From: Candidatus Bathyarchaeota archaeon
GTDB lineage: Archaea > Thermoproteota > Bathyarchaeia > Bathyarchaeales > Bathyarchaeaceae
Direction of reading: 5' to 3'
DNA length: 54,480 bases
Assembly: GCA_020348945.1 (NCBI GenBank)
Contig: CP070759.1
Location: 1,172,074 to 1,226,553, forward strand
Of this stretch, positions 21,072-29,276 are shown piece by piece. Under the pieces are notes generated by a model that was not told where the DNA came from, searched no databases, and was given only the letters and a program-made list of their open reading frames with translations. Numbering within the stretch: position 1 is the first letter of the stretch; every line of letters starts with the position of its first letter. The translations under genes were made by a program, and so were the position numbers.

Positions 21072-21512
21072 TTGAAGCGAGAATATCCTACACAGCCTGT
21101 TGCAAGCGTTGGAGCACTCATCGTGCACGAGGGAAAGCTCCTCATCGTAAAAAGAGGAGTGGAACCATCAAAGGGCAAATGGAGCATTCCAGGCGGAGCC
21201 GTTGAACTCGGCGAGAGGATTCGAGATGCGCTCCTTCGAGAGGTAAAGGAAGAATGCGGCTTAGACGTGGAAATAGCGTTGGAAAAACCCATGGACGCCA
21301 TCGAAAACATCACAATAAGCAAAGATGGACGCCTCCAGTATCACTACGTTTTGCTACAGTTTCTAGCTCGACTCAAAGGAGGAATCCTAAAACCCGCAAG
21401 CGACGCGCTGGATGCCAAATGGGTTCCTTTAGACGAAGTGGAAAAATACGACTTAACAAAATCTTTTCGTTCATTCTTCCAAAAGCATCAAGATGAACTG
21501 AGAAAAGTTTAG
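21072..21512 (+). CDS. Nudix hydrolase
   Basis: This 146-residue protein carries a complete Nudix box: GGAVELGERIRDALLREVKE followed by ECGL (about residues 39-62), with the REVKEEC core that binds magnesium. The family cleaves nucleoside diphosphates linked to another group (NDP-sugars, oxidised dNTPs, ADP-ribose). The substrate is not obvious; ADP-ribose pyrophosphatase-like is plausible. The TTG start at 21072 follows AGGAGG at 21059-21064. Its stop overlaps the convergent herA stop by 4 bases. Confidence 0.88.
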   Translation: MKREYPTQPVASVGALIVHEGKLLIVKRGVEPSKGKWSIPGGAVELGERIRDALLREVKEECGLDVEIALEKPMDAIENITISKDGRLQYHYVLLQFLARLKGGILKPASDALDAKWVPLDEVEKYDLTKSFRSFFQKHQDELRKV

Positions 21513-22963
21513 TTCTTTTCGGTGAAGAAAAGCCTCGTATGTCCCATCGCTTGAACGTCAAGGGCCTTCACCCTAACAACAACAGGAAAATCTTTCACCG
21601 CCCTTCCAAGAACAAGACAGTGGCGAGGCGGCAAATCTCGTGCGACAGACTTCACTGTTTCAGCGTCCACCTTCGCAGCTCGAGACACGACTTCAAGATC
21701 ATGTTCGTTAGTGAAGTTGAAGAGAAACACATTGTCGGCTTGACGGTAGATGTTTTCCCGTATGGTGTTGGGCTGATTTGTCACGAAAGTGGTGAAAACT
21801 CCGAAGTGTCTCATCCTAGTAACGATGTCGTCCCAGTAAGTTTCGCGGAGGTAAAGATGTGCCTCTTCAGCAAAGAGAAAGACAGCTTTTATTTTCCACT
21901 GAGTTAACATCTCAACAAGCTTTCCAAGCACGTATTCCACCGCGACCTGTCGGTCCACCAAAGAAATGTCGTGCAGGTTTATGACCAAGGCCCCGCCGTT
22001 TCGAATTTTACGAAAGTTTTCCTCAAGACCATTCGCATCTGCTGGATTATCGGTGAAAAAACGGGAGTTCAAAAGACTGTAATAGCGGGAGAAGAGGGCG
22101 TCCCGTACGTGAGTATTGCATTTCCAGTTTTTTATAGTCTCACCGAGCTCATGTAGAGTGAGGGTGCCTTGCTCTTGGAGGAAACGCCATATGCGTCGAA
22201 ACTCTCGAGCAGAGGTTCCTGGAAGGTGAAGAGCGTGGATAAGGATGTCCAGCATAACCCGCAATTTCATCTGGGGAAGTGTCATCTTAAGGTTGTCTCC
22301 TGGGGTGAGCGCTTGAATCTTGCTGAAATGTTCATTTTTTTCTCCATTCGAAGAGAAGCCTAGGTGGGTGTACTCACCGTTGAGGTCTAAAACAACCACC
22401 ATGGCTCCATGATCAATGAGTCCCATGACCAACAGCTTGGAGAGATGGGATTTCCCTGTTTCCTTCTTTCCAGTTACGATGTTCAGTCTTCCGTCTAGAG
22501 TCTGAGCGTCAATGTTGAACTGGGACAATTCCCTTGTCTCACCGAGCTGGATAGGAAGATCAGCGCTTATCTTTGCAAGGGTTAGGAGGGATGTTGTTGG
22601 AAGCTTTTTGATTGTGGACTGGGAACGAGAGGGAAGCCACGAGGCGGTTACCCTTAACTTTCCATCTTCCATGGTTCCGCGAATCTTGCAAACGAGCAAC
22701 CGTGAATCTTGGATATACGCCACATGGGAGATTACCCCTAACGGGTCAAAACTTTCCTCGTGAACAAGATCGTTAGTGGTGGAATTTCGCAGAAGCTCTT
22801 CTAAGATGCCGGGAACGTTGGCGAACTGGACGTCGATTACTTGAGTGATCAAGCTTCTACGAGTTGCAGGGTCTTCTATGAGGAGGTATTCTCCCTTCTC
22901 AACGTTCTCGGTTGGAAGAGCTAGAATTTGAACCGTGTTTCCCTCTTTTCTGTAAAGTCGCAT
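21509..22963 (-). CDS. herA: HerA-type hexameric DNA translocase
   Basis: This 484-residue protein has an N-terminal beta-barrel (HAS) region, then a RecA-like motor with Walker A GKKETGKS (about residues 165-172) and Walker B AVFLFAEEAHLYL (about 385). HerA forms a hexamer that feeds DNA to NurA for 5'-end resection in archaeal break repair. Walker A departs from the usual GxxGSGKS by having KKET. The longer frame to 23191 would read antisense through nurA; ATG at 22963 follows AGAGG and starts two bases after the nurA stop, which indicates tight coupling. It is convergent with a Nudix gene. Confidence 0.88.
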   Translation of the reverse strand: MRLYRKEGNTVQILALPTENVEKGEYLLIEDPATRRSLITQVIDVQFANVPGILEELLRNSTTNDLVHEESFDPLGVISHVAYIQDSRLLVCKIRGTMEDGKLRVTASWLPSRSQSTIKKLPTTSLLTLAKISADLPIQLGETRELSQFNIDAQTLDGRLNIVTGKKETGKSHLSKLLVMGLIDHGAMVVVLDLNGEYTHLGFSSNGEKNEHFSKIQALTPGDNLKMTLPQMKLRVMLDILIHALHLPGTSAREFRRIWRFLQEQGTLTLHELGETIKNWKCNTHVRDALFSRYYSLLNSRFFTDNPADANGLEENFRKIRNGGALVINLHDISLVDRQVAVEYVLGKLVEMLTQWKIKAVFLFAEEAHLYLRETYWDDIVTRMRHFGVFTTFVTNQPNTIRENIYRQADNVFLFNFTNEHDLEVVSRAAKVDAETVKSVARDLPPRHCLVLGRAVKDFPVVVRVKALDVQAMGHTRLFFTEKN

Positions 22964-22965
22964 CG

Positions 22966-24063
22966 CTAATCCTCTGAGCCCTTTCCGAAAAGTCCGAAAA
23001 GAAGTCGACGCACATTTGGCCGCGTAACCATTTTCAGCCCACATTTTTGAGCTATGAAGCGTTGAATGCCTATCACTTCGTTGGCGGTGAAAGTTGAAAA
23101 TATGTGAGCCAAACGTAAAGTTTCGGGATAACTCTGAAGAAACATGTCGTTCCCAAGAAGTCTCTGGACGGCTTCTAATCCATGTTCCCACGAAATCTCT
23201 CTGTCAATGTCCAACCGAAAAGAACAGCTTCCCTTGGTGAGCTTAGCCACAAAAATGTTTCCTAGAAGACACATTGTACCCGAAGTATGGGCAGGGAAAT
23301 CGTTGAATTTGAGCAGGTAAGGCGGTGAACACTTCCCCGATAGGTCAGTCAGTCGATGTCCGGAAAGCCTTAGGCGAGTGATCTTAGAGAACGCCAAGAC
23401 CGTGTTTAGGCGGTTTCTGGCGACTTTCAAGAGTTGAGAAACAACGTTCACTGGACTGTCTATTGTTCCAGCGGTCAGGGAGCCGTCCCAAAGGATGACG
23501 CTTCGATGTAGGGAACAACTGATACCCATCTGAAGCCACCGTTCAAGCAGATTGCACATTCGATTTTGCATGTTAATGAGGCTGGGAGTGTTAGTCTCTC
23601 CTGAACCTTTAAAACAGAATTGTCTGAGCATGCCGTAAATTTCCCGCTTATTTTCCTCTGTTATGTGGAATGGAAATGGCCCGATGCGGAGGCATCTGTA
23701 TCTCCTTTTTTCCCTCCAAACTACAGCTCCCCTCAAGGCGCACAACACTCCGGTTTCGGTTTCTCCAACTTTTATGCTGGAAACGTCCACGGCAACGACC
23801 GTAGTGTCATCGAGAAGGGGTTTCAAGGGTACAGATCGTAACGTGCAGGAGTTGTGATGTGGAAAAGCTAGTGTAATGTTTTCTGTGCTTTCTTTGGCGG
23901 GTTCGTAAGGTGTTATTTCGTTGGGCTGAAAATATTCTCCGTTGATTTTCTTCATGGATCTAAGGCTGAATTCGATGAACCGTTGTGGGAGTTGCAGGTC
24001 TTCGAGGGATTGTGGAAAATTATATTTTGGTGTTGTTGCATAATGTAATTGTTCAATCAACAA
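22966..24063 (-). CDS. nurA: NurA 5'-3' nuclease
   Basis: This is a 365-residue protein. The first acidic motif VVAVDVSSIKVGE (Asp about 93) opens the NurA nuclease domain, with the second conserved strand VILWDGSLTAG (Asp in the middle) and a third region with LDIDREISWE late in the chain. NurA is an RNase-H-like nuclease that acts with HerA on broken DNA ends. The gene directly precedes herA on the same strand. Start TTG at 24063 follows GGTGA. Mre11 and Rad50, usual neighbours, are not in this window. Confidence 0.85.
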   Translation of the reverse strand: MLIEQLHYATTPKYNFPQSLEDLQLPQRFIEFSLRSMKKINGEYFQPNEITPYEPAKESTENITLAFPHHNSCTLRSVPLKPLLDDTTVVAVDVSSIKVGETETGVLCALRGAVVWREKRRYRCLRIGPFPFHITEENKREIYGMLRQFCFKGSGETNTPSLINMQNRMCNLLERWLQMGISCSLHRSVILWDGSLTAGTIDSPVNVVSQLLKVARNRLNTVLAFSKITRLRLSGHRLTDLSGKCSPPYLLKFNDFPAHTSGTMCLLGNIFVAKLTKGSCSFRLDIDREISWEHGLEAVQRLLGNDMFLQSYPETLRLAHIFSTFTANEVIGIQRFIAQKCGLKMVTRPNVRRLLFGLFGKGSED

Positions 24064-24094
24064 TATTCACCAATTTGCAGTTTATGGAGGTACT

Positions 24095-24129
24095 GAGTAT
24101 TTAAATATTGCGCATGAACAACATGTTCA
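24095..24129. promoter_or_regulatory. Bidirectional promoter with TGAACA-ACA-TGTTCA inverted repeat
   Basis: The palindromic TATA-like ATTTAAAT at 24099-24106 lies between nurA (minus, start 24063) and the small winged-helix gene (plus, start 24157). It can serve both directions. Immediately on the plus side an inverted repeat (6-base arms, 3-base spacer, 24115-24129) covers the predicted transcription start of the plus gene. A regulator bound here could set both transcripts. Confidence 0.55.
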
Positions 24130-24156
24130 ATACAATAAACAATAAGGGACACAAAC

Positions 24157-24567
24157 ATGTCAGAAGAACCAAAAACTCCAATCCGCCTCAAAATGAAAAT
24201 TGGAAACATGGAGTTCGAAATCGAATGCCGAGAAGACCAACTGGAAAAGACAGTTAAAAAAATCTTATCAACAGTCAAAGAGTACGCCAGAGAGCCAATA
24301 ATGATGCCAGAACGAAGATTGCCCCCCGCGAGAGGTGAAACCTGCAAGGGACTCATACAGAAACTTTGGTCAGAAGGCTGGTTCGCGTCTCCCCGAGGAC
24401 TCGGAGAAGTGCACAGTGAAATGGCACGAAGAGGCTACCACTACGACCGCACCGCAGTGGCACACGCCCTCATCGACTTGGTTAAAGATGGCCTACTAAC
24501 AAGAGAGGGAAGACCTCGCCGTTACCGTTACGCCCAGAAAAGACCTCCACTGACCAGTCAGGTTTGA
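24157..24567 (+). CDS. Small beta-beta-alpha plus winged-helix protein A, divergent from nurA
   Basis: This is a 136-residue protein. The N-terminal module (IRLKMKIGNMEFEIECRED then QLEKTVKKILSTV, about residues 9-42) is two strands and a helix; the same pattern opens the three small genes at 24558-25949. The C-terminal half (about residues 65-130) is a winged helix: TCKGLIQKLWSEGWFASPRG, LGEVHSEMARRG, then ALIDLVKDGLLTREGRPRR. Probably DNA- or protein-binding in the cytoplasm. It shares a promoter region with nurA, so joint regulation with HerA-NurA is plausible. Its 3' end overlaps the convergent gene by 10 bases. No characterised homologue is recognised. Confidence 0.7.
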   Translation: MSEEPKTPIRLKMKIGNMEFEIECREDQLEKTVKKILSTVKEYAREPIMMPERRLPPARGETCKGLIQKLWSEGWFASPRGLGEVHSEMARRGYHYDRTAVAHALIDLVKDGLLTREGRPRRYRYAQKRPPLTSQV

Positions 24568-25064
24568 ATCTTTTCCCGAATTTTTAGCAGAATTCCTTCT
24601 TGTAAACGCTTAATCCCAATGGTAGTTATTTTATAATCGCCTTCATCGGTTTTTGTTGCCATTCCTTCCCGACAGAGTTCACTCAGTCGTGTGCTCGTGA
24701 TTTTGGAGCTTTTTCCAAGTCGTGTTTGCAGTTCTTCCTTGGAGAAAGAATTTCCGTTCAAGTGTCCAAGTTTATGGCCTATGTGAGCGGCTAAGAGATA
24801 TAGTTGGATGGTTTCGCTGTCCGTGAGCTTTTGTTTAGAGATGAGAATCTCGGGGCCTTCAGGAGCAATTGCAATGACGCCCTCAACGTTTTCGATGAGT
24901 TTTTGAAGGTCAACGGTGAGCATCACCTTGCGCGCTACATGAAAGGAAGGAATCATTTGGGTGAAGAAACGGTTGACGCTAACCCAAACATCATCTACAT
25001 TACCAACAAACGTTTGTTCAACATCCCTGTACTTAACCTGAACAGTTATCTTCTCTTCACTCAA
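24558..25064 (-). CDS. Small beta-beta-alpha plus winged-helix protein D
   Basis: This is a 168-residue protein. The N-terminal module is KITVQVKYRDVEQTFVGNVD followed by a helix; the middle is a basic linker; the C-terminal part (about residues 105-165) is a winged helix with a recognition helix in SSKITSTRLSELCREGMATK and a wing with YKITTIGIKRLQEG. The TTG at 25064 begins one base after the upstream stop (TGA at 25066-25068), within GAGGGCAATGAG. It is the last gene of the trio at 25949-24558, closely resembling protein C in the phrase LTDSETIQLYLLAAH versus LTHYEAIGLVLYAS. Confidence 0.7.
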   Translation of the reverse strand: MSEEKITVQVKYRDVEQTFVGNVDDVWVSVNRFFTQMIPSFHVARKVMLTVDLQKLIENVEGVIAIAPEGPEILISKQKLTDSETIQLYLLAAHIGHKLGHLNGNSFSKEELQTRLGKSSKITSTRLSELCREGMATKTDEGDYKITTIGIKRLQEGILLKIREKIQT

Positions 25065-25065
25065 C

Positions 25066-25533
25066 TCATTGCCCTCGAAGCTTAGCTAGCAGCTCTTCCT
25101 CAACCCACCTTTCGCCTTGTACAGTTAACTTGAACTCCGGTCTAGACGGGTCTGGTTTAAACACCATTCCCCGCTTGGTCATCTCGTTGAGACGTGCCGG
25201 CACCATAGATTTGATTCCGCTTGAACTGAGCAGTCGGCTGATTTTGGTAGCGGTGCTGACTTTTTCTTCAGAAGCATATAAGACCAGACCAATGGCTTCG
25301 TAGTGGGTTAGCTTTCCTCGAGTAGTTATTACTGGTCCTTCCGTGGTAAGTTCAACGATTCCCTCAAGCTGCGCTTTTATTGGTGGAGCAAGTTTTGTGG
25401 AAACTAGACTGCTTATTTCGCTCATAAACTGGGCGGGCATGGTTCTCAGCGTCTCAAGGATTTCTTGGGCGTTGTCTCCCTCCAAAACTATCTCGCCAAA
25501 AGGAGTTTTGATCTTCACCTGAATCTTTCCCAT
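25066..25533 (-). CDS. Small beta-beta-alpha plus winged-helix protein C
   Basis: This is a 155-residue protein. The first ~35 residues (IQVKIKTPFGEIVLEGDNAQ and a following helix) are the shared module; a beta-rich middle (GIVELTTEGPVITTRGK) precedes a winged helix (about residues 90-150: TKISRLLSSSGIKSMVPARL, then a wing FKLTVQGERWVEEELL). The ATG at 25533 follows GGAGA and starts two bases after the stop of the upstream gene; a longer frame to 25587 is rejected because it overlaps that gene. The family is not known to me; DNA binding is inferred from the fold. Confidence 0.7.
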   Translation of the reverse strand: MGKIQVKIKTPFGEIVLEGDNAQEILETLRTMPAQFMSEISSLVSTKLAPPIKAQLEGIVELTTEGPVITTRGKLTHYEAIGLVLYASEEKVSTATKISRLLSSSGIKSMVPARLNEMTKRGMVFKPDPSRPEFKLTVQGERWVEEELLAKLRGQ

Positions 25534-25535
25534 GT

Positions 25536-25949
25536 TTATGTCTCCTTTCCAGCCAAAGTGTATACGTAACCCTTTTTCGTTTTCCACCTTTTAATCCTGC
25601 CTTTCTTAACAAGCCACACGAGCACCCCGGAGAGGGTGGTAGCTGGATAGTGTGCCGTATTTGCCTTCATGGCTTCCACCAGTTCAGGCAGGGTTCTGGG
25701 CTGCTGTTTTCCCCAGTCTGTTTCAAGTAGCTTCAAAACTGTTTCACTGCAGTTCGCGGAAGACGATATGGTTGGATAGAGTGGGAGAGTAGATTGAGGC
25801 AGAGTTACGTTGATGTTGGCTGTATCAAAAGCTTTGGAAACGTTTGCCACCAGACTGGGAAGTTCCTCGATAGTTTTTATGACTTCCTCACGTGTTCCAC
25901 TAATCTCTATCTCATGACTGCCGAATTTAACACGAAGTGAAAATGGCAT
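25536..25949 (-). CDS. Small beta-beta-alpha plus winged-helix protein B
   Basis: This is a 137-residue protein. The N-terminal module (FSLRVKFGSHEIEISGTREE then a helix EVIKTIEELPSLVANV) is the clearest copy of the pattern shared by the four genes in this block. A Ser/Pro-rich linker leads to a winged helix (about residues 65-135: SETVLKLLETDWGKQQPRTL, LSGVLVWLVKKGRIKRWKTK). The ATG at 25949 is preferred over upstream starts because it follows GGAG and opens with the module. It begins 92 bases after gatE ends, so it may be read with gatD-gatE. Confidence 0.7.
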   Translation of the reverse strand: MPFSLRVKFGSHEIEISGTREEVIKTIEELPSLVANVSKAFDTANINVTLPQSTLPLYPTISSSANCSETVLKLLETDWGKQQPRTLPELVEAMKANTAHYPATTLSGVLVWLVKKGRIKRWKTKKGYVYTLAGKET

Positions 25950-26041
25950 CCATTTTTTTCTCCATACTTCGAATATACTGCTGTCCTTTTTAGAATTTAC
26001 GACAAGTGTTAAATTTCTGATTCCAGTTGGTGCCAAGGTCG

Positions 26042-27940
26042 TTAAACGAGGTCTTTCAACTTTCTTTTCAATGTTTCGCTAACTGACTCAACCTTGACTC
26101 GTCCTCGGGTTCTCTTCATAACCATGCCCATGAGGGGCCCAAAAGCACCCTCTTTTCTCTCTTCTATCAAGCTTCTGTTTTCTCTTATCAAATCATCTAT
26201 TATTTTTTCCAGTTCCTCTTGTGAAATCATAGTCAACCCCAGACTTTTAACAGCCTCCTTCGCTGTAGCGTTCTCATTTTTCGACAGCCAAGTAATGCTG
26301 TCTGATATTGCTTCCTTAGCGGTTTCTCCGGCGTCCACAAGATGAAACAGCTCTTTCAACTGCTCATCACTAACCTTCTCCACTTCGATTCCATCGCGTC
26401 TCAAGGCCTTCATGGTCTCCGTTAACGCAACCGCTATGACAGTGGGAGAAACCTTGGTTTCCTGAGCCAGCGCTTCAAATAAATCCGTGTACTGTGAATT
26501 CAGAATTTGCCTCACCAGCTTAAGATTTAAACCGTACTCTTTTGTTAAGCGCTTCATCTTCTGCTCGGGCAACTCCGGAAGACAAGCGCGCAGATTTTCC
26601 ACATGATCTTCACTCAACTGGATTGGAGGAACATCAGTCTCCGGATACATTCGAGCAGCCCCAGGCCTCGGACGCATGTACCGGGTAGTCCCATCTAGGT
26701 TTGCCGCACGCGTTTCTTCAGGAACTCCCATCACCGCCTCTCTAGCTCTCTGCGTCACGACTTCAATGGCGTCGTTTGCGTTTTCCACACTATCCGCCAC
26801 GAATACAACAGCATCTTGGGGTTCCGCTTTCACAAGCTTCTTTAGATCTTCTGTTTCTTTGACGGTTACTCCATAGGCTGGAAGCTCATCCGTGTGAAAG
26901 ATTCCGCCTACCCTTCCCCAGAAACGAGCAATGTCTGCCATTTCCATTCCAAGCCTCATGCCAGGAGCTAGCTCCATCTTGAGTAGCCCAGCAAACATGG
27001 GCAGTTTGACCGCTAACACAAGCTGGTTTTGGCTGACTGCTTTTTGGATGACTCGACACTTTGTTTGCTTGAAAATGGGTGTAACGTCCACGAACTCGTC
27101 TTTGATGATCTTTTCTGTTACTCCGCGTTTTTTCAACTCAGCTTTTATCTTGAGGAGACCGAGCTGGCGCTGAACCTCATACTCGACAGCCTTCGAGACC
27201 AGTTCAAGCTGTTGAACTCCCTTAATTTCGGTTAGAGCTCCGTCTCGAATTGATATGTTCAGGTCTTGGCGAATGGTTCCTAGTCCTCGCCTAACCTTTC
27301 GTGTGGCTCTCATTACTCGCCCGATAGCTAGAGCGGTTTTTTCCGCTTCCTGAGGAGAATAGATGACTGGCGCTGTGGTGACCTCAATGAGGGGAATTCC
27401 GAGGCGGTCGATTCGATATCGAATGACAGAGTCTTTTTTCACCATTTTTCTAGCAGCGTCTTCTTCAAGACTTACGTGTTGTATGGGAACTTTTTTTCCT
27501 TCAATGTCCAGTTCTCCGTCAAGAGCAATGACGCATGTTCGCTGGAAGCCTGTGGTGTTCGATCCGTCTATAACGGTTTTGCGCATCACATGTATTTCAT
27601 CCACGGATTTGGCGTTCATCATGAGTGCAGCTGTGAGGGCGATTTCCACTGCTTCTCGATTAAGGTCGTGAGGGGGCTCCTCATCCATCTCTACGAGGCA
27701 CGAGGTTTCTCTGTTCGCTTCGTACAGTATTTTCACGCCTTTCTGAAACTCGAAGAAGGCTGCTGGATCAATTTGCCCCAACTCGCTCTGAGTAGGTCTT
27801 AGCCTCCTTAGAAACGTGATTTCTGATTCTTCTTTGAAGAGTTTAGGCTTGCAGGAGCAGAAGAGTTTTGTCTCTGTGTCGAGTTGCTGATGCACTTCAA
27901 GCCCGATTTTTAGTCCAACTTTTGGATAATTGATGTTCAT
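26042..27940 (-). CDS. gatE: Glutamyl-tRNA(Gln) amidotransferase subunit E
   Basis: This 632-residue protein starts YPKVGLKIGLEVHQQLDTE, the signature of the GatB/GatE core that binds Glu-tRNA(Gln) and activates its glutamate with ATP. An AspRS-like insertion follows (ARFWGRVGGIFHTDELPAYG), then the C-terminal helical tRNA-binding domain (about residues 500-630). The insertion is specific to archaeal GatE. With GatD it makes Gln-tRNA(Gln) where no glutaminyl-tRNA synthetase exists. It starts 7 bases after gatD ends, with GAGGAG as ribosome-binding site, so the two are co-translated. Length and order match the family. Confidence 0.95.
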   Translation of the reverse strand: MNINYPKVGLKIGLEVHQQLDTETKLFCSCKPKLFKEESEITFLRRLRPTQSELGQIDPAAFFEFQKGVKILYEANRETSCLVEMDEEPPHDLNREAVEIALTAALMMNAKSVDEIHVMRKTVIDGSNTTGFQRTCVIALDGELDIEGKKVPIQHVSLEEDAARKMVKKDSVIRYRIDRLGIPLIEVTTAPVIYSPQEAEKTALAIGRVMRATRKVRRGLGTIRQDLNISIRDGALTEIKGVQQLELVSKAVEYEVQRQLGLLKIKAELKKRGVTEKIIKDEFVDVTPIFKQTKCRVIQKAVSQNQLVLAVKLPMFAGLLKMELAPGMRLGMEMADIARFWGRVGGIFHTDELPAYGVTVKETEDLKKLVKAEPQDAVVFVADSVENANDAIEVVTQRAREAVMGVPEETRAANLDGTTRYMRPRPGAARMYPETDVPPIQLSEDHVENLRACLPELPEQKMKRLTKEYGLNLKLVRQILNSQYTDLFEALAQETKVSPTVIAVALTETMKALRRDGIEVEKVSDEQLKELFHLVDAGETAKEAISDSITWLSKNENATAKEAVKSLGLTMISQEELEKIIDDLIRENRSLIEERKEGAFGPLMGMVMKRTRGRVKVESVSETLKRKLKDLV

Positions 27941-27947
27941 TTGTTGT

Positions 27948-29276
27948 TTACTCCTCTTCTTCAGGAGTGGTTCTGGGCGAGATTTCGTGAGCTATGTTTG
28001 CGGTGAGAAGCTTTTTAACTTCTTCAACATCCTTGGTTTGTCCTAGGACCCACATGAGTTTCACTAGGGCGGTTTCGGGCAGCATGTCTTCAAGCGGGAT
28101 CACTCCCATTGCTAAAAGGTCTCGACCTGTGTCGTAAACGTTCATGCCTAAACGTCCCCAAATACACTGCGAGGTCATGGCGACAACCACATCGTTTTTA
28201 ACAGCCTTCCTAATCGCTGGGAAACAGTAGTTGCTCACGTGGCCAAGTCCTGTTCCCTCGAGGACAATGCCCCTGTAACCTTCTTCAATGTGCCACTCGA
28301 GGATTTTAGGATTTAAACCTAGATGAAACTTGACTAGCGCCACTTTTTCATCAAAGTCTGGTTTCAGAACCAGTTTTCGTGAGGAGTCACGCTGACAATA
28401 ATCATCCACCAACATGGTGATCTTCTCGTTTTCTATCCTAGCGAGCGGTGAGGTGTTCACGGATTGAAAAGTGTCCCGTCGACTCGTGTGACATTTTCTA
28501 ACCTTAGTTCCCCGATGGAACACGATGGAAGCGTCCGAAATCGTTTCGTGCATAGCTAAGACCACCTCGGCAAAGGGAGCCCACGCAGCCGCCCTTACAG
28601 CACCTATCAGGTTGGTTGCAGCATCTGAACTAGGGCGGTCAGCGGATCGTTGGGAACCCACCATTATCACAGGCACTGGCAGATTTTGAAGTGTGAAGCT
28701 TAAGGCGGCTGAGGTGTATGCCATGGTGTCGGTTCCATGGGGTACCACGACTCCTGCTGCGCCTTTTTGGATGTGTTTGGCGACGGTTTTGGCTGTTTCT
28801 GACCAGTGCTTCGCTGTGATGTTTTCGCTGTAAAGGCTGAAAAGAATCTGTGCGTCTATTGTGGCGACTTCTGAGAGTTCCGGAACAACGCTGTAGAGGT
28901 CGCTTGCGGAGAGGGCGGAGCGTACTCCTCCTGTTCGGTAGTCCACTCGGCTGGCGATGGTGCCTCCGGTGCTGATGATTGCCACTTTAGGTAATTCTGG
29001 TTTTTGTTTTGGAAGCGGTGGCGGTGTGAAAGTGGGTTTGGCTCCTACTCCGATTTTTTCGATTTGTGTGTTGAGGGTGATGTTGATTCCTATGTTGTAG
29101 CCGCTTTTCATCTTAATTACAACGTGCTTTTCATCGCCATATTCGGATCTGGGAATGAGGATGCCCTCGTAGGTTTTCGCGTCTTTCGTGATGCGGATAA
29201 GGTCGCCGATTTCAGCTCCAGCTTTCCTCAGAACTTGTAATGCTTTTCCTTTATATCCTGGAAAACCTTCGCTCAA
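27948..29276 (-). CDS. gatD: Glutamyl-tRNA(Gln) amidotransferase subunit D
   Basis: This is a 442-residue protein. An N-terminal Sm-like domain (GDLIRITKDAKTYEGILIPR, about residues 19-38) precedes an L-asparaginase-like domain with VAIISTGGTIASRVDY (catalytic Thr about 106) and VVPHGTDTMAYTSAAL (about 187-202). GatD releases ammonia from glutamine (or asparagine) and channels it to GatE. The TTG start follows GGAG by nine bases. It is the first gene of a run that continues into gatE and perhaps the small winged-helix genes. TTTTATATAT near 29342-29351 is the likely TATA box, and a perfect 12-bp palindrome lies in the leader. Confidence 0.95.
   Translation of the reverse strand: MSEGFPGYKGKALQVLRKAGAEIGDLIRITKDAKTYEGILIPRSEYGDEKHVVIKMKSGYNIGINITLNTQIEKIGVGAKPTFTPPPLPKQKPELPKVAIISTGGTIASRVDYRTGGVRSALSASDLYSVVPELSEVATIDAQILFSLYSENITAKHWSETAKTVAKHIQKGAAGVVVPHGTDTMAYTSAALSFTLQNLPVPVIMVGSQRSADRPSSDAATNLIGAVRAAAWAPFAEVVLAMHETISDASIVFHRGTKVRKCHTSRRDTFQSVNTSPLARIENEKITMLVDDYCQRDSSRKLVLKPDFDEKVALVKFHLGLNPKILEWHIEEGYRGIVLEGTGLGHVSNYCFPAIRKAVKNDVVVAMTSQCIWGRLGMNVYDTGRDLLAMGVIPLEDMLPETALVKLMWVLGQTKDVEEVKKLLTANIAHEISPRTTPEEEE

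Follow-up and report, generated by a model that had tools for sequence, protein, structure and literature searches.

The association of herA-nurA with mre11-rad50 has been described in hyperthermophiles (reviews, PMC7690668), and HerA-NurA is also listed in Candidatus Nitrosocaldus cavascurensis (PMC5797428). In Saccharolobus, the DNA-damaging agent NQO switches on the herA-mre11-rad50-nurA operon as part of a network centred on Orc1-2 (PMC10470591). The locus analysed here encodes the same enzymes as this operon of thermophilic archaea, and in several of its relatives mre11-rad50 lie just downstream of herA. However, control in Saccharolobus is exerted by a global network, whereas here a private, single-locus putative site is linked to a protein of a different, unnamed family. 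To our knowledge, the control of the resection machinery in archaea outside the Sulfolobales is largely unknown.

A further described system with which the locus can be compared is BlaI/MecI. Like these repressors, the protein called A below is a small winged-helix protein, and its gene is separated from the proposed target by a short divergent promoter that contains a dyad rich in TG/CA. It differs from them in its N-terminal module, in the tandem arrangement of 6-bp boxes and in a target that would be DNA-end resection rather than beta-lactam resistance. Neither the family of A and its three neighbours B, C and D nor the site was found described in the literature covered, which leaves out most subscription journals and preprints.

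The window, that is the whole stretch of 54,480 nucleotides analysed, belongs to a genome (G000) assembled as a single contig of 1.72 Mb whose nearest named relatives are Candidatus Bathyarchaeota. The preliminary description had placed four small genes around nurA, herA and gatDE, with one facing nurA and the other three behind gatDE and converging on the first. We find the same layout, with the following features:

21509-22963, minus strand: herA, HerA-type ATPase of 484 aa, starting directly after the nurA stop
22966-24063, minus strand: nurA, divergent NurA nuclease (PF09376)
24049-24056, no strand: TTGTTCAA, possible fourth box, within the first codons of nurA
24098-24107, no strand: TATTTAAATA, probable TATA element, near-palindromic and possibly common to both divergent promoters
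24108-24130, no strand: operator-like site TTGYGCATGNNCAWNWTGNNCAA (TTGCGCATGAACAACATGTTCAA), flanked by the TATA element and the predicted start of A
24109-24114, 24115-24120 and 24124-24129: three TGNNCA boxes in the operator-like site
24157-24567, plus strand: protein A, 136 aa, strand-strand-helix module, linker and winged helix; proposed regulator of A and nurA-herA
24558-25064, minus strand: protein B, 168 aa, strand-strand-helix module, hairpin and MarR/PadR-like winged helix
25066-25533, minus strand: protein C, likely start ATG at 'MGKIQVK', paralogue of B
25536-25949, minus strand: protein D, likely start ATG at 'MPFSLRV', paralogue of A, opening the D-C-B arm behind gatE
25985-26000, minus strand: conserved element GTAAATTCTAAAAAGG (GTAAATTCTAAAAGG, GTAAATTCTAAAARGG) preceding D and distinct from the TGNNCA site (G000:C1:1198058-1198073)
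26042-27940, minus strand: gatE
27948-29276, minus strand: gatD

The likely true starts of C, D and herA give shorter reading frames (25533, 25949 and 22963, respectively). On the minus strand, gatD-gatE are followed by D-C-B, and this arm meets the plus-strand gene A tail to tail, the 3' ends of A and B overlapping by 10 bp. A NUDIX hydrolase gene (21072-21512, plus strand) converges on herA and is found beside herA in about half of the relatives.

The NurA of the window scores just below the PF09376 cut-off (19.8 versus 21 bits), and orthologues at the same locus exceed it, for example in G047 and G027, identifying the family as NurA. HerA is recognized by DUF87 (PF01935; 41.2 bits versus a cut-off of 23.2) and carries a Walker A motif (GKKETGKS) and an EEAH-type Walker B motif (AEEAH). 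It falls far short of the anti-phage HerA model (NF042943; 47 versus 800 bits); PADLOC matches to HerA are partial and weak, and none was obtained for A, C, D or NurA. These weak PADLOC scores and the synteny do not support a defence island. A search of NurA against the PDB gave irrelevant encapsulin matches.

The statement that mre11-rad50 are absent stands for the window, in which the canonical adjacency of herA-nurA with mre11-rad50 is not found, but fails for the genome: Mre11 is encoded at ~950.6-954.1 kb together with Rad50, whose reading frame is partly masked. Among 52 A-selected relatives with enough sequence, mre11-rad50 are adjacent in at least 9, and in several they follow herA past a NUDIX gene. 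In G009, A and nurA-herA are followed by a second nurA-herA-like run with mre11. Some Bathyarchaeia (L230, L229) carry two NurA-HerA pairs, one linked to A and a second followed by mre11-rad50-like genes, and in L230 both pairs are apparently in one tandem run. The HerA of another relative (L198, 3565-6156) contains an intein (PF14890) inside its ATPase domain. In a locus from another family of the phylum (L205:11124-12712), genes for an 8-oxoguanine glycosylase and an RsmB/F-type RNA methyltransferase follow herA, and L201, L204, L206 and L210 have similarly sized ORFs after herA. NurA was not detected by either search in seven near-complete Bathyarchaeia (G013, G017, G020, G022, G048, G054 and G057), raising the question of how DNA ends get resected there.

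The four small proteins had been proposed to share an N-terminal module of two strands and one helix and a C-terminal winged helix. Sequence profiles and AlphaFold2 models of A and B bear this out, and the two predicted folds agree with each other rather than being unrelated. Single-sequence comparisons with phmmer relate A to D (1e-10) and B to C (4e-9), and a profile of A retrieves D homologues with E-values of ~1e-5 to 1e-12. The sequence link between A/D and B/C is weak (best 1e-7, mostly 1e-3 or worse, with profiles over relatives), and their kinship is backed by the same topology predicted for A and B. In the model of A (mean pLDDT 77.7), two strands and a helix (E9-15, E18-24, H26-45; pLDDT 73-78) are joined by a disordered linker to the winged helix (H63-72, H82-91, H98-110, E114-117, E124-127; pLDDT ~90), which contains the near-invariant helix HYDRTAVAHALxDLVK. 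The model of B (mean pLDDT 90) has E6-12, E15-21 and H23-47, then a hairpin and the winged helix (H82-98, H109-116, H120-132, E136-138, E144-146). Both thus display the three-helix HTH followed by a two-strand wing that is general to winged helices.

None of the four proteins belongs to a family in Pfam, NCBIfam, PADLOC or PHROG. The plausible sub-threshold matches are to winged-helix regulators, namely Penicillinase_R for A and D, HVO_A0261_N for B and phrog_2440 for C. The matches to Penicillinase_R, the BlaI/MecI profile (PF03965), concern 9 of 16 A members (best E 0.006) and D (E 0.0035), with 15.3 bits for A and 18.1 for D against the curated cut-off of 22.6. The top fold-search matches are winged helices, none with E < 1e-3 (Foldseek). 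For A, they include the BlaI domain 1p6r and are headed by the Hop2 winged helix (2mh2; E 0.012, not significant), from which A differs in having an N-terminal module of its own and a conserved site in its promoter. For B, the winged helix and flanking helices are best matched by AspA, a segregation protein of plasmid pNOB8 (4rs8, 5k5q; E 0.007, TM 0.75 by target, not significant); the match covers the winged helix only and B has the additional N-terminal module. BlaI, Fur and PadR are examples of the DNA-binding winged helices that A matches weakly. All family and fold-search matches of A are weak, those in Pfam lying below the cut-off, and they do not fix the class of this probable DNA-binding protein. 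A search of the PDB with the A profile returned chance matches only; viral contigs contained no relative of A, and a viral origin was rejected.

Scanning with the A alignment, with nurA not used in the selection, yielded 135 confirmed relatives, of which 80 were kept. A is divergent from nurA in 76 of these 80 loci, that is in all 76 testable ones, across a near-constant gap of ~95 bp; the four exceptions are two contig ends (L078 and L111), a run of N abutting A (L131) and an apparent herA-A misjoin (L132). Across 61 whole genomes, A and window-type NurA are both present in 41 and both missing in 18, each occurring alone in a single genome (p = 3e-13, a value that is too strong owing to genome relatedness, with losses in several genera). 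The pairing of A with a facing NurA-HerA extends to other families, as judged from 'same phylum' labels on related genomes, many of them incomplete and some with masked sequence. L196-L198 and L200 have A facing a nurA-herA missed by window-type profiles, with NurA/HerA confirmed by Pfam in L196 and L198. Homologues thus do adjoin herA-nurA, and the recurrence of the arrangement across several families of the phylum supports the suggestion of an ancient cluster.

In the alignment of the 76 A/nurA gaps many columns are invariant, and TATWTAA precedes TRTTGYGCATGNNCAWNWTGNNCAA. Of the 42 genomes bearing A, 36 have a perfect copy of the 23-bp site, as against none of the 19 without A; among the six A-bearing genomes lacking a perfect site, two loci are cut by contig ends and others have diverged. 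Each genome with a perfect copy has it at a single locus, which is the A/nurA junction wherever positions were compared, and in the window it is found once against 0.01 expected. A global regulon of A is not supported: no genome searched has the exact site a second time, and matches with two mismatches are few and scattered. Over the first nurA codons, a TTGNNCAA box is kept in 66 of 76 loci. Its variable bases alter the encoded residue while its flanks persist, a pattern that suggests a fourth box.

The aligned pattern of the site has drifted in 21 loci that belong to other families of the phylum. Nevertheless, within 150 bp of the A start these loci contain 32 TGNNCA-N3-TGNNCA pairs (9-bp spacing), distributed over 15 loci, against 3 in the rest of the ~315 kb and 0.06 expected. 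Seven control palindromes occur 0-1 times near the A start, which is background, and the wider form TTGNNCA-N3-TGNNCAA is found 18 times near A and nowhere else. The register is not constant, since boxes 1 and 2 abut in Bathyarchaeia (6-bp spacing) whereas the period elsewhere is 9 bp. Like the TG..CA core, the A helix YD[RK]TA[VI][AS]H has been largely conserved over this range of loci, and from this joint conservation we infer that A binds the site.

Taken together, the divergent pairing, the matching presence and absence and the promoter site support well, for A, the earlier idea of an undescribed regulator for end resection. On this sequence evidence, A is likely to regulate transcription of the NurA-HerA end-resection operon locally and as its dedicated factor, with repression as the most likely effect. 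It would bind the array of TGNNCA boxes in the A/nurA gap. By the standard spacing of archaeal promoters, the TATA element and the start of A would flank the array, which would also be situated just upstream of the nurA core promoter. Because of this placement, occupied boxes in the window would be expected to shut both divergent genes, so that A would repress itself as well as nurA-herA. The N-terminal strand-strand-helix module is probably used for association with itself or a partner, or for signal input, and the signal may be one such as DNA damage. B, C and D, on the facing arm linked to gatDE, would probably be related regulators or partner subunits. A more far-reaching version is in our estimate rather unlikely as a whole: in much of the phylum (Bathyarchaeia and several other families), DNA-end resection would be under a private repressor-operator switch in which A, perhaps in mixed complexes with B, C and D formed via the shared N-terminal module, would sense damaged DNA or DNA ends and then free the divergent A and nurA-herA promoters.

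The regulator claim had been extended to B, C and D, for which the link to nurA-herA is real but looser. These genes are tied to gatDE, in Bathyarchaeia often far from nurA-herA, and are also joined to the A side in about half of the Bathyarchaeia loci. It is conceivable, though the less likely case, that they have nothing to do with end resection and are gatDE-linked regulators of something else, only A belonging with nurA-herA, a reading compatible with our interpretation of A. Consistent with this, gatDE are kept by D-C-B or C-B without adjacent nurA-herA in eight loci (L022, L025-L029, L037 and L040), and C persists in three of the genomes in which no NurA was detected (G013, G048 and G054). 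The D arm also has its own element at 25985-26000, which precedes D in many Bathyarchaeia and sits close to C in those without a detected D; as the mark of a regulon this element was rejected, its perfect copies being single per genome and present only in some relatives. Against such a separation, most of the A-selected loci from other families have B converging on A, and gatDE are often upstream there (L202, L205, L208, L209, L212 and L232). Some NurA is present in 38 of 40 B-bearing genomes, the two exceptions being fragmented, and in three genomes without A (L030, L217 and L032) a C-B-B(-D) run leads straight into a different nurA-herA on the same strand. B, C and D are thus, judging from gene neighbourhoods, probably partners or relatives of A rather than established parts of the nurA-herA system.

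Those C-B-B operons also fit the idea that A, and perhaps B to D, are accessory or adaptor subunits acting on DNA ends with HerA-NurA by protein contact, the winged helix holding DNA. The linkage of A to nurA-herA is invariant, the top structural neighbour of its winged helix is Hop2, a recombination accessory protein (TM 0.83 normalised by target), and a TBPIP/Hop2-family chain matches A weakly by sequence (E 0.29). However, the Hop2 matches are generic to winged helices, and an adaptor leaves the near-unique conserved boxes in the A promoter unexplained. Beyond linkage, we found no positive evidence for the adaptor role that the preliminary description had offered as its other option, and we consider it improbable. 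The boxes themselves could be mainly a promoter feature of nurA. That the conserved intergenic sequence serves as an RNA or a simple core-promoter element, and not as an operator for A, would agree with its overlap with the TATA element and with the weak hairpin predicted for the window copy (-7.5 kcal/mol, z -2.3). Yet the array lies mostly upstream of the expected start of A, site positions 5, 20 and 21 have no helix-type covariation, and the 9-bp-spaced TG..CA repeats of distant loci are confined to the A locus; we know of no promoter element made of such repeats. With folding weak and covariation absent, an RNA element was rejected, and the explanation as a whole appears highly unlikely. 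The site might also be read by another or a global DNA-binding factor with A as a mere neighbour, since binding by A is itself putative. A global regulator is difficult to reconcile with a perfect site at one locus per genome, and the absence of the site from all 19 genomes without A speaks for A itself, making this the least probable of the explanations weighed here.

With A as the likely local regulator, an unnamed regulator family, a predicted single-locus operator and an arrangement recurring across the phylum together form a concrete and cheaply testable hypothesis, which extends to any cultured relatives carrying the locus. The TGNNCA array provides a handle for finding the system in other genomes. 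If the far-reaching version of the private switch is real, it would amount to a local circuit for responding to DNA damage, with no relation to LexA or Orc1-2.
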